From positions 3,470,501 to 3,534,500 of the forward strand of contig NZ_CP087952.1 of the NCBI RefSeq assembly GCF_028752835.1: DNA of 64,000 nt, written 5' to 3'. This document shows, piece by piece, positions 3,641 through 9,661 of the stretch. The notes beneath the pieces are model-generated. The model was not told the DNA's origin, did no database searches, and worked only from the letters and a program-made list of their open reading frames with translations. The stretch is from Desulfosarcina sp. BuS5. GTDB lineage: Bacteria > Desulfobacterota > Desulfobacteria > Desulfobacterales > BuS5. The position numbers and the translations under genes are program-made. Position 1 is the stretch's first letter; each line of letters starts with the position of its first letter.

Positions 3641-5434
3641 ATGGAAAATGAATCTCAAAATAATAATCTTTCCGAACAGGAAAAAATGGATGCACTTGTT
3701 GCCGAACTTGCTGGTGAATCAAATGATCCGGCTAAAAACGATCTTAAAAATAATAATAACAATGATGATGAAAACAACTCAGAAACTGTCGAAAATATCA
3801 AAAATAATGAATTTGAGGAGACCGCTCAAAACGCTGATAGCGCCGACCCGGATATAAATAATCTTTCCGAACAGGAAAAAATGGATGCACTTGTTGCCGA
3901 ACTTGCTGGTGAGTCAAATGATCCGGCTAAAAACGATCTTAAAAATAATAATAACAATGATGATGAAAACAAATCAGAACCAATCGAGAATATCAAAAAT
4001 AATAAATTTGAGGAGACCTCACAAAACGCTGATAGCGCCGACTCGAATATAAAAAACCTTTCCGAACAGGAAAATTTTAGTAATAAAAATGAACCTGATG
4101 ATTTTAATTCTCTCGATGATGATGAAATAGAACATTTTGATGCTGCTATCTCAACTAAAATATCGGATAAAAAAATAACAAAAAAAACTGAAAATGTTGA
4201 TTTAAATATTTCGACTGAAAAGGAAAATACTGCAAAAAAACCAACAATTAATAAATTGAAAAAACAAATTAGAATAAAAAAATATATAAAACTGCTTATC
4301 TCTTTGTTTTTATTATTGATTTTATTTTCTTCAGTGTTTCTTATATATAAATATAAAACTGGAAAAAATCATTCTTTAATATCTGAACATCAATCCTCAA
4401 ATAACCAGTATAAAAACAATAAACCTTTAACGACCACTAAAATAAAAGAACCTGAATTTGAAGAAAAAAAAATTACTCAATCTCAATTAGAGGATCTTCT
4501 GAAAAAAATAGATATTATTATAGATGAATTGCAATCAACCAAAAATGAGCTTGATAATATTATACGCTATTACAAAGATGGAATAAAAAATGTGGAATTA
4601 GCTATTACCAAAGAAATAAAAAAAAAAAATATACATACATTTAAAGATGCAATAAAAAATATGAGAATAAAACTCGGTATAGAAACTATTCAAAGGAGAT
4701 TATTCTATTTTAATAAACTTGAAAAACCATTCAATCAACTTAATTATGATATTGAAGAGCTAATATTTTTAAAACGCAAAATTAAAATAGCTATACAAAT
4801 TATGCCTCTTATAAATGAAACAGAAATTGCGAATTTTCAAAAAGATATAGAAACTGCTCTTATAAAACATATTTCAGTTACCGATAAACTGTTTGTTGAT
4901 AATAATTCTACAAATAAATTAGAATCTTTTGAATCTATATGGGCCGCATTGCCCTTTTATGAAAAAACAAAAGATAGTATAAAAAAAAAAAATAATTTAA
5001 CCAACATAGAAATATGGGAAGAATTATCTAATGGAAATTTCGATAACGTAAATAAACTTACTAAATTATCAATCGCTTCCGCAGAATGTCTGTCAAAATG
5101 GAAAGGAAAAGATCTTTATTTAAACAATATTACAACTCTTACACCACAAATAACAAAAAAACTTATTGAATGGAAAGGAGAATGGCTATGTCTTAACGGT
5201 CTCTCTACCCTTTCTCCTGAAACAGCAAAATATCTTTTTAAATGGGACGGCAAACGGATTTCTCTTAATGCAATAAAACAACTTTCACCTAAGGAAGCAG
5301 AATATATATCCGGTTGGCAGGGTAATCATCTTGAAATGATTAATCTTAACAGTTTTTCTCCCACGACTGCCCAATATTTAACGAAATGGCTCGAAGCGGG
5401 AGGAAAAATTTATATTAATGATAAATATCGATAA
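3641..5434 (+). CDS. Unrecognised membrane protein: Asn/Asp-rich tandem repeats, one TM, LRR-like C-terminus
   Basis: I do not recognise this 597-residue protein. Residues 1-210 are low-complexity Asn/Asp/Glu/Lys with a 65-residue tandem repeat starting LSEQEKMDALVAELAGE (two full copies and a third LSEQE). A Lys-rich stretch precedes one membrane helix (about 216-236). Residues 270-440 look helical or coiled-coil. Residues 473-590 hold about four 24-residue units of the form LSPe-AkyL-kW-G--L-LN, an LRR-like solenoid. The arrangement suggests an acidic cytoplasmic N-terminus and an exported C-terminus. The ATG at 3641 lacks a clear Shine-Dalgarno. Base composition is far more A+T-rich than neighbouring genes, suggesting transfer. 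It overlaps the next gene by 17 nt. Confidence 0.7.
   Translation: MENESQNNNLSEQEKMDALVAELAGESNDPAKNDLKNNNNNDDENNSETVENIKNNEFEETAQNADSADPDINNLSEQEKMDALVAELAGESNDPAKNDLKNNNNNDDENKSEPIENIKNNKFEETSQNADSADSNIKNLSEQENFSNKNEPDDFNSLDDDEIEHFDAAISTKISDKKITKKTENVDLNISTEKENTAKKPTINKLKKQIRIKKYIKLLISLFLLLILFSSVFLIYKYKTGKNHSLISEHQSSNNQYKNNKPLTTTKIKEPEFEEKKITQSQLEDLLKKIDIIIDELQSTKNELDNIIRYYKDGIKNVELAITKEIKKKNIHTFKDAIKNMRIKLGIETIQRRLFYFNKLEKPFNQLNYDIEELIFLKRKIKIAIQIMPLINETEIANFQKDIETALIKHISVTDKLFVDNNSTNKLESFESIWAALPFYEKTKDSIKKKNNLTNIEIWEELSNGNFDNVNKLTKLSIASAECLSKWKGKDLYLNNITTLTPQITKKLIEWKGEWLCLNGLSTLSPETAKYLFKWDGKRISLNAIKQLSPKEAEYISGWQGNHLEMINLNSFSPTTAQYLTKWLEAGGKIYINDKYR
3656..4070 (+). repeat. In-frame 195-bp tandem duplication inside the N-terminal coding region
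   Basis: The block beginning ATCTTTCCGAACAGG occurs at 3666, again at 3861, and as TTTCCGAACAGG at about 4059, giving a period of 195 bp (65 codons). The first two copies are nearly identical over their first 110 bp, including a run of AAT/AAC codons. This indicates a recent duplication or a slippage- or recombination-prone array. Confidence 0.85.
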
Positions 5435-6050
5435 AACCCGACTGAAAAAAGAATATTTTGCCCATTTTAATTCTCCTTGCGAGGAGAAACCGATCCTCAC
5501 GAACGGACAACAAGTGATTAAATTTTTTATAAAATTTAAAATCTTTTATATCCTCCCTCTATATTTATTTATAGCTTATGATTTTGTATTTGCTAATAAT
5601 GATATTAATAATATTCTACGGCAAAAATTATCGGATATTACATATACTCAGGAAATCATTGCAAAAAAAATCAAGTTATCTGTAAAAATAAAAGATAACC
5701 TAATTAATAATGAAACAAAAATTATTCAGAAAATAACAGACAAAAAAAAATCTTTAAATATTAATAATTGTCAAACTGCTGATCAATTGCCGTTAATGCA
5801 ATTCGATCTAACATTAATTCAACTACTTCGTACTTATATTGCGGAACTTTCCCAAAAAATCATTCTTTTAAAAAACTGTAATACCCAGCTTGATTTTTTA
5901 TATAACCAGGCTGAAGATAGTTTAATGATAAACAAAACGATTAAAAACCTTCAAATAAATGAATTGATACTAAAAATAGATAAAACCCTCGAAACAAATC
6001 AAAACTTAATTGAAAAAGAGATATTGTCCTTAAGATTCTTGCAAAAATAA
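5418..6050 (+). CDS. Unrecognised exported helical protein, partner of the upstream gene
   Basis: The 210-residue product has no family I recognise. A hydrophobic segment, FKIFYILPLYLFIAYDFVFA, followed by NN looks like a signal peptide, but it begins about 36 residues after the ATG. An alternative GTG at 5514 would place it at the very N-terminus. Residues after 60 are Lys/Ile/Leu/Asn-rich and probably form long helices or coiled coil. The gene overlaps the preceding one and shares its extreme A+T bias, so the two probably function as a pair at the cell envelope. The last codons and the stop lie in a fragment of the GGGTTCGC-type repeat element, so the original C-terminus may be lost. Confidence 0.6.
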   Translation: MINIDKTRLKKEYFAHFNSPCEEKPILTNGQQVIKFFIKFKIFYILPLYLFIAYDFVFANNDINNILRQKLSDITYTQEIIAKKIKLSVKIKDNLINNETKIIQKITDKKKSLNINNCQTADQLPLMQFDLTLIQLLRTYIAELSQKIILLKNCNTQLDFLYNQAEDSLMINKTIKNLQINELILKIDKTLETNQNLIEKEILSLRFLQK

Positions 6051-6305
6051 ATTTGCAATTTTAAGTGTTGAGGCGCCTGGCTGGCAAAGCGCAAGAACTA
6101 TGCTGTCATCACTTAATTCATAACCTCTCCATACATATTTACTCAATACGCTGACATCTGCTGATGCAGTCGGTCTTTTCTCCATGTTCGACATGGCACT
6201 GATCAGCCCCTTTGGTTCCTCTTCCTCTGCCCACAGATAAGTATTACCTGTAAATAGTGCCATTGATATTATAATTGCCACCAGTTTCCACACTCGAATC
6301 CCCAT
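6030..6305 (-). pseudogene. Truncated TorF-type outer-membrane porin, N-terminal fragment
   Basis: From the ATG at 6305 (AAGGA upstream) the frame encodes a signal peptide ending near TYLWAEEEE. It then gives SADVSVLSKYVWRGYELSDDS, the conserved start of TorF-family putative porins, which are normally around 250 residues. After about 70 residues the frame runs into the repeat fragment at 6042-6092 and ends in unrelated codons (LALCQPGAS...). The beta-barrel is therefore missing and the gene is dead. It lies directly downstream of amt on the same strand, an arrangement seen for such porins in ammonium loci. Confidence 0.75.
6042..6092. repeat. Half-copy of the GGGTTCGC palindromic element
   Basis: About 50 bp (GCAATTTTAAGTGTTGAGG and the following CGCCTGGCTGGCAA) match the left half of the element at 816-972 almost exactly. 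The other half is absent. It forms the junction between the A+T-rich gene pair and the truncated porin and supplies both their 3' ends. Confidence 0.8.
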
Positions 6306-6357
6306 TTGCTTAACATTCCTTTTATTATTATAAATTAACAATATATCTTACTTGCCC

Positions 6358-8094
<1,737 letters not shown>

Positions 8095-8253: not shown

Positions 8254-9408
8254 TTAAGTTTTTGCATATAGCATTTGCTCTTTGATAATCAGATTATTAG
8301 ACCATACGTTTTTTTCGTCAGTACGTAATTCGTTCTGGATGGTATTTCTAAGCTGACGAATCCTCTTTATTGATACAGGTTCATTAAACTGTTCATGGCA
8401 GTATATGGCCATAAGCAGGTAGGTTATTAACCCCGCAAGGATTTGAACCATCAGGCCATATCTACTGTGAGCAATCAAGTGGTACACTTTTAAATGTTTC
8501 TTCCACCATTTGAAAAAAGTTTCGATATCCCATCTAAGCTTATAAACGGTTGCAACCTGCTCGGCTGTAAGATCATAACGATCAGTTGCCACAAAATATT
8601 TGACACCGGCAATTTTATAACCAACCAGTCGAACCGGCTTTCTGGTCTGGTTTACCCCAGGAGTGCCAAGAAGAACCACAGCATCATAAAAAATATAGCT
8701 GTCGGGATCAACAGGCTGCTCTTTGATAATAGTTCTTGTTGTTTTCGCTTTGATGCGGCAAACAAAATGTTTTTTTTCATCCTGAAGAAGATCAAAATCC
8801 TTATGTGATTGATACCCCCGATCCATGATTCCTGTTTGGCCTTTTGTAAGGATAGACCTGACAAAGGGGCGTTCAGCGCCATTTCCATTTGTCAGATGAA
8901 TTTTTATAGGAATCTTGCGATTGACATCAAAGCCGAAATGGCCTTTTGCTTTTTTAGCGCCTTTTCTGTAATCAGCCCAGTACATGGACAGAACTGCATC
9001 AATTAAAGATCCATCAATGGAAACGAGTTCACCGAGATCTGAATAATTTGATGGTAAAGCATTTTGTGCCTGGCTGCAAAGAGCTTGAAAAACATATTCA
9101 AGCTGTTCAAGCCCTCGAGAATTGATAATTTCGGAAAAACTGCTACGACTGATCCCTCCATCTGGAGCGACACATTCTTTGGCAAAATCGTCTTCTTTAA
9201 GGTGTTGAATAAGATCACGAGCTGATTCATGTTCTTGTAGATGGAAAAATATCAGTGCGTGAAGCTGATCTTCAAAAGTCATTTTCAATGGCCTGTGACC
9301 TCGGGATTTAAGCTGTGGCGTGTCAGGAAAAATCTTTTGCAAAGGTTTGAGAAATCGAGCATGAGATTGGGGATTAAAATTCTTTTTTGGGATATTGAAT
9401 ATGTCCAT
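8254..9408 (-). CDS. IS4-family DDE transposase
   Basis: The protein has 384 residues. The RNase H-like DDE core shows LVSIDGSLID (first Asp), a GIMDRGYQSHKDF segment (second Asp) and the IS4 YREK signature YKLRWDIETFFKWWKKHLK. The N-terminal part (NPQSHARFLKPLQKIFP) is the usual helical DNA-binding region of this group. It appears intact: no frameshift or internal stop is visible. The ATG is preceded by AAGGAG, and the stop codon lies inside the left inverted repeat, typical of a compact IS. Confidence 0.93.
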   Translation of the reverse strand: MDIFNIPKKNFNPQSHARFLKPLQKIFPDTPQLKSRGHRPLKMTFEDQLHALIFFHLQEHESARDLIQHLKEDDFAKECVAPDGGISRSSFSEIINSRGLEQLEYVFQALCSQAQNALPSNYSDLGELVSIDGSLIDAVLSMYWADYRKGAKKAKGHFGFDVNRKIPIKIHLTNGNGAERPFVRSILTKGQTGIMDRGYQSHKDFDLLQDEKKHFVCRIKAKTTRTIIKEQPVDPDSYIFYDAVVLLGTPGVNQTRKPVRLVGYKIAGVKYFVATDRYDLTAEQVATVYKLRWDIETFFKWWKKHLKVYHLIAHSRYGLMVQILAGLITYLLMAIYCHEQFNEPVSIKRIRQLRNTIQNELRTDEKNVWSNNLIIKEQMLYAKT

Positions 9409-9500: not shown

Positions 9501-9596
9501 AATTTTTTTATCCCATATAACATGCAAAAACCTAACCGGACACTACTGAATTTTTTTATCCCATATAACATGCAAAAACCTAACCGGACACTACTG
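9501..9596. repeat. Two tandem 48-bp copies of the IS right terminus
   Basis: Positions 9501-9548 and 9549-9596 are identical. Each contains ATCCCATATAACATGCAAAA followed by the inverted repeat ending CACTACTG. The duplication could come from abortive or adjacent transposition, or from replication slippage. Confidence 0.93.
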
Positions 9597-9661
9597 AAAA
9601 AAATTACACTTCTGTAAAAAATAAGCTTATTTTTCCCTTTTTTTAAAAAAAATATTTAAAA

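Follow-up and report, generated by a model that had tools for sequence, protein, structure and literature searches.

Two open reading frames lie on the same strand of the window, i.e., the whole analysed stretch of 64,000 nucleotides from Desulfosarcina sp. BuS5, whose genome (G000) comprises two contigs and 4.18 Mb (Table 1). We refer to them as gene 1 and gene 2; they bear out the same-strand two-gene unit that an earlier note, made from the letters of this DNA alone, had proposed. Upstream of the hydrophobic segment that the same note had recognized as a membrane helix, the gene 1 product carries a tail of 217 residues with 52 D/E versus 27 K/R. Because a K/R-rich stretch precedes the helix, gene 1 is predicted to be oriented N-in/C-out with its acidic N-terminus in the cytoplasm. 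The motif LSEQEKMDALVAELAG is present twice in the translated tail, and its second copy is followed by the stub of a third (LSEQEN). The underlying tandem repeat had been described as expanding; the repeat itself is real and motif copy number ranges from 0 to 6 across homologues, while an expansion among strains would be conjectural.

Table 1. Features of the gene pair (positions counted from the first letter of the window)
Feature	Position	Strand	Evidence
Gene 1, predicted type II membrane protein, 597 aa	3641..5434 including stop	+	ORF; homologues; dN/dS
195-bp tandem repeat, 2.1 copies, 94% matches	3662..4074	+	Tandem Repeats Finder
FliM-N-like motif copy 1, LSEQEKMDALVAEL	3668..3709	+	Translation; FliM N-terminus profile versus shuffles
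FliM-N-like motif copy 2	3863..3904	+	Translation, motif pattern
Second short motif (F..L[DE]..), 65 residues N-terminal of the membrane helix	4097..4126	+	Pattern count versus shuffles
Transmembrane helix, residues 218-236, N side K/R-rich	4292..4348	+	Hydropathy
Predicted periplasmic helical hairpin, residues 280-411	4478..4873	+	AlphaFold2, pLDDT mostly 88-95
LRR domain, residues 450-597	4988..5431	+	AlphaFold2; VIA-align 2 versus solved LRR chains
Gene 2, signal-peptide-like N-terminus and predicted periplasmic helical hairpin	5514..6050; ORF opens at ATG 5418	+	Likely GTG start; model; codon differences

The part of gene 1 beyond the membrane (residues 270-597) was modelled by AlphaFold2 from 38 sequences with a mean pLDDT of 89.5 as three helices, two of 50 residues each and a third that is shorter, followed by a leucine-rich repeat (LRR) domain at pLDDT 95-98, though the mutual placement of helices and LRR is unsure (pTM 0.50). 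The C-terminal W/L repeat has a period of ~24 residues, and its W/G-rich unit starts with LSPExAxxL. VIA-align places the LRR on 6o60_C with a Z of 12.0 (rmsd 3.3 over 143 residues), a score tied by the LRR chains of ribonuclease inhibitor and NLRP, in line with the LRR-like solenoid of 24-residue repeats suggested before. Foldseek returned no match at E < 0.001 for either gene's model, the best PDB hit of gene 1 standing at E 0.058, and the only thing that gene 1 has in common with bacterial LRR proteins such as the Legionella LegL1 and Leptospira LIC10831 folds is the LRR solenoid. Compared with a same-genus copy, dN/dS is 0.26 for the LRR, 0.31 for the helical part and 0.64 for the tail, all from few differences. 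The LSPExAxxL unit also exists without a membrane tail, in a TPR-plus-LRR lipoprotein-like protein of genome G109, where it has many copies (L168:1053-3497), and in a lipoprotein-like protein of a Myxococcales record (L073:5665-7497).

The model of gene 2 consists of long helices (mean pLDDT 83.0, pTM 0.68). VIA-align pairs it with a mixture of long-helix proteins (best Z 13.9) within the tool's warning range, and these matches were set aside. Gene 2 probably starts at GTG 5514 rather than at ATG 5418. From GTG 5514 onward the protein opens with a signal-peptide-like sequence, and against the same-genus sequence the 26 codons upstream show five non-synonymous and no synonymous changes (few, hence weak), compared to five and two in the 178 codons that follow. 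The overlap of the two genes that the earlier note had read from the sequence depends on ATG 5418 and is therefore in doubt; with the favoured start, a gap of ~80 bp would separate them. In several homologous pairs, the genes do touch or share a few bases. At 40 of 42 distinct loci, a profile built solely from gene 2 matches the neighbouring gene 1, so that both proteins have a hairpin domain in common, and gene 2 is predicted to be a secreted protein homologous to the gene 1 hairpin.

Within the window, the G+C content of the pair (0.27-0.29) is far below that of its flanks (0.40), so that the reported extreme A+T bias holds at this place; as a feature of the system it does not, because family means over 42 loci are 0.53 for the flanks and 0.53-0.54 for gene 1. 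The low G+C is local to this genome and no family trait, and a recent arrival of the pair from an A+T-rich relative is possible. Promoter and terminator scans were near chance (20 versus a shuffled mean of 17.8, and 1 versus 1.0, respectively). Beside the pair, the genes for P-II and an ammonium transporter (6358-8046) look broken: of the 102 profile positions, P-II matches just 72, while the Amt reading frame is divided between two ORFs that lie ~140 bp apart and differ in frame. A DDE transposase gene (8254-9408; PF01609, E 3.2e-23) adjoins this glnK-amt locus and is followed by a perfect 48-bp tandem duplication (9501-9598). The short ORF at 6030-6341 has a signal-peptide-like start, the stretch KYVWRGYELSDDSIVL and no Pfam match; judging from its resemblance, we take it to be perhaps the remnant of a porin-like gene.

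Searches with hmmscan found no Pfam family above the curated cut-off for gene 1 or gene 2 and no NCBIfam family for gene 2, and Pfam, NCBIfam, PHROGs and PADLOC together gave no usable family for either, in agreement with the earlier statement that they belong to no known one. PADLOC matches of a single gene 2 homologue to LmuB (8e-4) and GajB (3.8e-3) were partial, covered helical stretches only and were discarded. Among the papers listed in literature searches, none describes the pair. With gene 1 as query, 11 of 58 relatives matched, the window genome counted, and a profile of the periplasmic part matched 58 of 389 genomes of the order at E 1e-3 or better. Full-length gene 1 is present in 52 of these 389, a count that leaves out a gene 1 interrupted by masked sequence (G151) and weak matches in G062, G109, G199, G206 and G251. 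Across a phylum set, two of 395 genomes matched, both inside the order. A named collection contributed 38 loci, of which 37 come, by record title, from Desulfobacterales or delta-proteobacteria (Desulfosarcina, including D. widdelii and D. alkanivorans, Desulfatitalea, worm symbionts and others); the 38th is the Myxococcales record L073, which has the LRR part alone in common and was excluded from homologue counts. From these searches, the family appears limited to one order, Desulfobacterales by annotation.

Of 42 distinct loci, 41 have gene 2 next to and downstream of gene 1, the sole exception being G019 (L027) with a lipoprotein-like gene nearby, and the suspicion that this is an undescribed and conserved pair is thereby upheld. 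Clustering of neighbours over 42 loci, the Myxococcales locus counted, revealed no general constant neighbour other than gene 2; the next cluster, with 16 loci, comprises mixed sensor-type proteins. SixA-like, guaA, larB-like and sensor-kinase neighbours, named by eye, were dismissed as lineage synteny. Two copies of the pair with unlike array lengths (L162, L163) are found in G301, and G187 encodes upstream of gene 1 a protein with pentapeptide-like repeats and, by eye, a TIR-like C-terminus (L166:332-1546).

Across the homologues, the linkers of the N-terminal arrays fail to align, and it is a short motif that persists. Its long form, LxxDQQxAxxxIMAEI, was found by pattern in 23 of 42 proteins with up to six copies (this list includes the Myxococcales protein and omits L071, neither of which has the motif), while a shorter, FliM-like form is present in the window protein and in L050, L054, L026, L027 and L031. 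Overall, 29 of 42 distinct homologues carry the array motif in one form or the other, and one (L062) has a CheX-like domain. The remaining 12 have neither (L036, L038, L047, L058, L061, L064, L066, L067, L068, L069, L071 and L072), with L064 cut by a contig end and L071 read separately because it is absent from the motif, charge, FliM-N-profile and composition counts. At least four of these 12 (from G211, G187, G033 and G027) come from FliM-bearing genomes, which speaks against capture of CheY as the function of the tail.

The earlier note had remarked that the repeat weakly recalls the N-termini of flagellar switch proteins, and this resemblance is supported for the motif of the window's own gene 1, as well as by the CheX-like domains and the co-occurrence with FliM described below. 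Using a profile built from 15 FliM N-termini of the order, the best place in the window tail is LSEQEKMDALVAEL, whose score of 27.9 compares with a shuffled mean of 12.4 and was reached by none of 200 shuffles; 12 of 41 proteins fall below p = 0.05 with ~2 expected, though in four of the low-p proteins (L045, L048, L053 and L060) the best place is another segment. The stretch DLSQDEMDALEKIMAEI of L052 resembles both forms, the FliM-type ILSQEEIDALLSAM and the long motif. By sequence, gene 1 resembles the N-terminal segment of FliM, with a short helix of LS..E-x-[IM]-DAL type that would sit on a disordered tether; unlike in FliM, it is repeated up to six times and membrane anchored, and Pfam detects no FliM middle or SpoA domain. 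FliM-N is the target of CheY (PMC7355467), CheZ and FliM bind one and the same face of CheY (PMC3774744), and at the C-ring, effectors bind the N-terminal motif of FliM (PMC7534056).

Run on 15 genomes, a profile of the long form strongly matches gene 1 in eight of them and elsewhere yields only rows at E 0.03 or worse, with further weak stretches of G152 falling within gene 1 itself. It scores no FliM and nothing strong outside gene 1 in these genomes, so we rejected a wider role of the long motif, and it misses the shorter forms of the window, G011 and G017. Because it passes over both FliM and the shorter form of the window, a common origin of the two motif forms, or of either with FliM-N, would be hypothetical, which counts against CheY capture. 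Searches of the PDB gave nothing for the window motif and chance-like rows only for the long-motif profile. Compared to other segments of the tail, the motif copies are only mildly more amphipathic (mean percentile 0.68). Amphipathic short helices are common in acidic tails, which counts against CheY capture. The second short motif, F..L[DE].., occurs in 12 of 42 homologues, compared to 0.4 predicted by shuffling, and mostly lies 65-150 residues N-terminal of the membrane helix; its pattern had been chosen by looking at these very sequences.

In both examined genomes of one genus (G055 and G102), a domain of 159 residues starts the tail and replaces the array. Pfam CheX matches it with E-values of 4.6e-4 and 0.012, which do not reach the curated threshold of 27 bits; among solved chains, the best matches are the CheC-domain protein 3iic (E 0.0044) and the CheX 6vpw (0.032) for one domain and the CheC/FliN fusion 4hyn (0.039) for the other. 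These N-terminal domains thus resemble the CheY phosphatases CheX and CheC but differ in being fused to a membrane LRR protein and in reading EMAD and EMAA where 3iic has ELTN, i.e., ExxD or ExxA in place of ExxN. Provided that the E and N of ExxN are the catalytic residues in CheX, as we assume, the catalytic Asn is lost and phosphatase activity is unlikely. In the reading favoured below, the domain would be another likely CheY-binding module.

FliM (PF02154) is encoded by 217 of the 389 genomes of the order, including 50 of the 52 with full gene 1 versus 167 of the 337 others (Fisher p = 6e-12, a test that ignores kinship), and this co-occurrence could partly be due to common ancestry. FliM falls into two score classes split by E-value at a border of 1e-54: in the better-scoring class, none of 117 genomes has full gene 1, compared to 50 of 100 in the other, where misplaced partial matches such as G376 lower rather than raise the share of the pair. 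In a set of 58 relatives, mostly one genome per family, full gene 1 occurs in 10 of 14 with one FliM class, in none of 18 with the other and in one of 26 without FliM. Among representatives, N-termini of the better-scoring class mostly read VDSLL and those of the other IDALL, ILSQEEIDALLSAM-type (L187-L193, L142). At several loci of the pair-associated class (L138, L141, L143, L145 and L146), a MotA-like gene is followed, by eye, by two consecutive MotB-like genes and then FliL and FliM.

A tree of 32 of 40 FliM rows (23 with and nine without full gene 1) required six changes of the gene 1 label versus 8.1 after shuffling, with 28 of 500 shuffles as low; the label is patchy and mildly clustered. 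Seven VDSLL-type rows and G166 were left out for their start pattern and read by eye, so the class split itself rests on E-values. This mild clustering, together with the limitation of the pair to one order, would fit a scaffold for adhesion or for sensing in the periplasm or cell wall that is unrelated to motility and was co-inherited with the flagellum in one clade. Two genomes point the same way and against CheY capture: G032 (95% complete) and G267 (86%) keep both pair and array with no FliM or FlhA detected. CheW is present in both, and chemotaxis as such does not discriminate because CheW was found in 14 of 15 genomes tested, another point against CheY capture. We nonetheless consider such a scaffold unlikely, as it leaves the CheX-like replacement and the FliM-like motifs unexplained, and in family f30, where 27 of 30 genomes have full gene 1, the gene is present in 25 of 26 genomes with FliM and two of four without. 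Furthermore, G062, which lacks FliM and FlhA, carries a short gene 1 without the entire N-terminal tail.

The flagellar region of the window genome encodes a FliM with this motif, FlhA and CheX (E 1e-11) as well as, by eye, FlhF, FlhG and a CheY-like protein. The pair lies ~426 kb away from these flagellar genes, which again counts against CheY capture, and the flagellar clusters that were inspected lack gene 1. It is therefore very unlikely that gene 1 is a structural component of the motor, e.g., a periplasmic collar anchored to the C-ring by FliM-like or FliN-like tails, even though periplasmic bulk plus a FliM-like cytoplasmic tail and the association with one FliM class would suit it; only half of the genomes of that class have full gene 1.

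In general plan, gene 1 resembles the polar hub proteins HubP/FimV/TspA. HubP comprises a periplasmic domain, one membrane helix with adjacent coiled coil and, in the cytosol, a large acidic region of repeats by which partners of flagellum and chemotaxis array are recruited (PMC8789113). Gene 1 likewise combines one membrane helix, a periplasmic domain and a large acidic cytosolic repeat region, and charge counts reveal an acidic N-terminus in nearly all homologues. Together with the FliM co-occurrence and a flhA-flhF-flhG order typical of polar flagella, seen by eye in the window genome, this would match a HubP-like polar organiser whose periplasmic domain marks an envelope site and whose tail recruits flagellar or chemosensory clients with no binding of CheY. 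We regard this as unlikely, since hmmscan found neither LysM (searched to E 10) nor TPR, the C-terminus is an LRR, the membrane orientation is inverted and the repeat is a conserved, FliM-N-like helical motif and more than D/E-rich sequence. In addition, LRR and helical hairpin would lie outside, accompanied by a separate secreted paralogue in gene 2.

Tentatively, and as one possible account of these sequences, we favour the view that the pair forms a scaffold across the membrane and is linked to flagellar chemotaxis, perhaps via multivalent CheY capture. Gene 1 would sit in the inner membrane and, with gene 2, build an envelope-spanning structure. In the periplasm, its hairpin might pair with its paralogue, the gene 2 product, and the LRR domain might grip a ligand of the periplasm or cell wall; LRR and hairpins would serve sensing or anchoring outside. 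In the cytoplasm, the long, acidic and presumably disordered tail with its repeated short helices akin to the CheY-binding FliM N-terminus could hold several molecules of CheY, or of a CheY-like receiver, at one place of the membrane. Close to the motor or the array, the tail may thereby store, tether or buffer CheY locally, with a conceivable effect on motility, and the CheX-like domain that replaces the array in one genus, its catalytic Asn lost, would likely bind CheY as well. More doubtful is the fullest version of this scheme, a membrane-tethered buffer of the chemotaxis signal, given to flagellated bacteria of one order, in which the number of tandem repeats would set the valency of an envelope-anchored, CheY-capturing tail and the LRR sensor would tune it.

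The pair has no family model, yet many members of an order of environmental importance, both cultured and uncultured, have kept it. In the usual picture, CheY, which signals to the flagellum when to reverse, diffuses freely as a messenger between receptor array and motor. If our reading is true, a membrane protein that carries a CheX-like domain or several helices of the CheY-binding type would offer the cell a new means of storing, placing or buffering the CheY signal and would connect this signal to a periplasmic cue.
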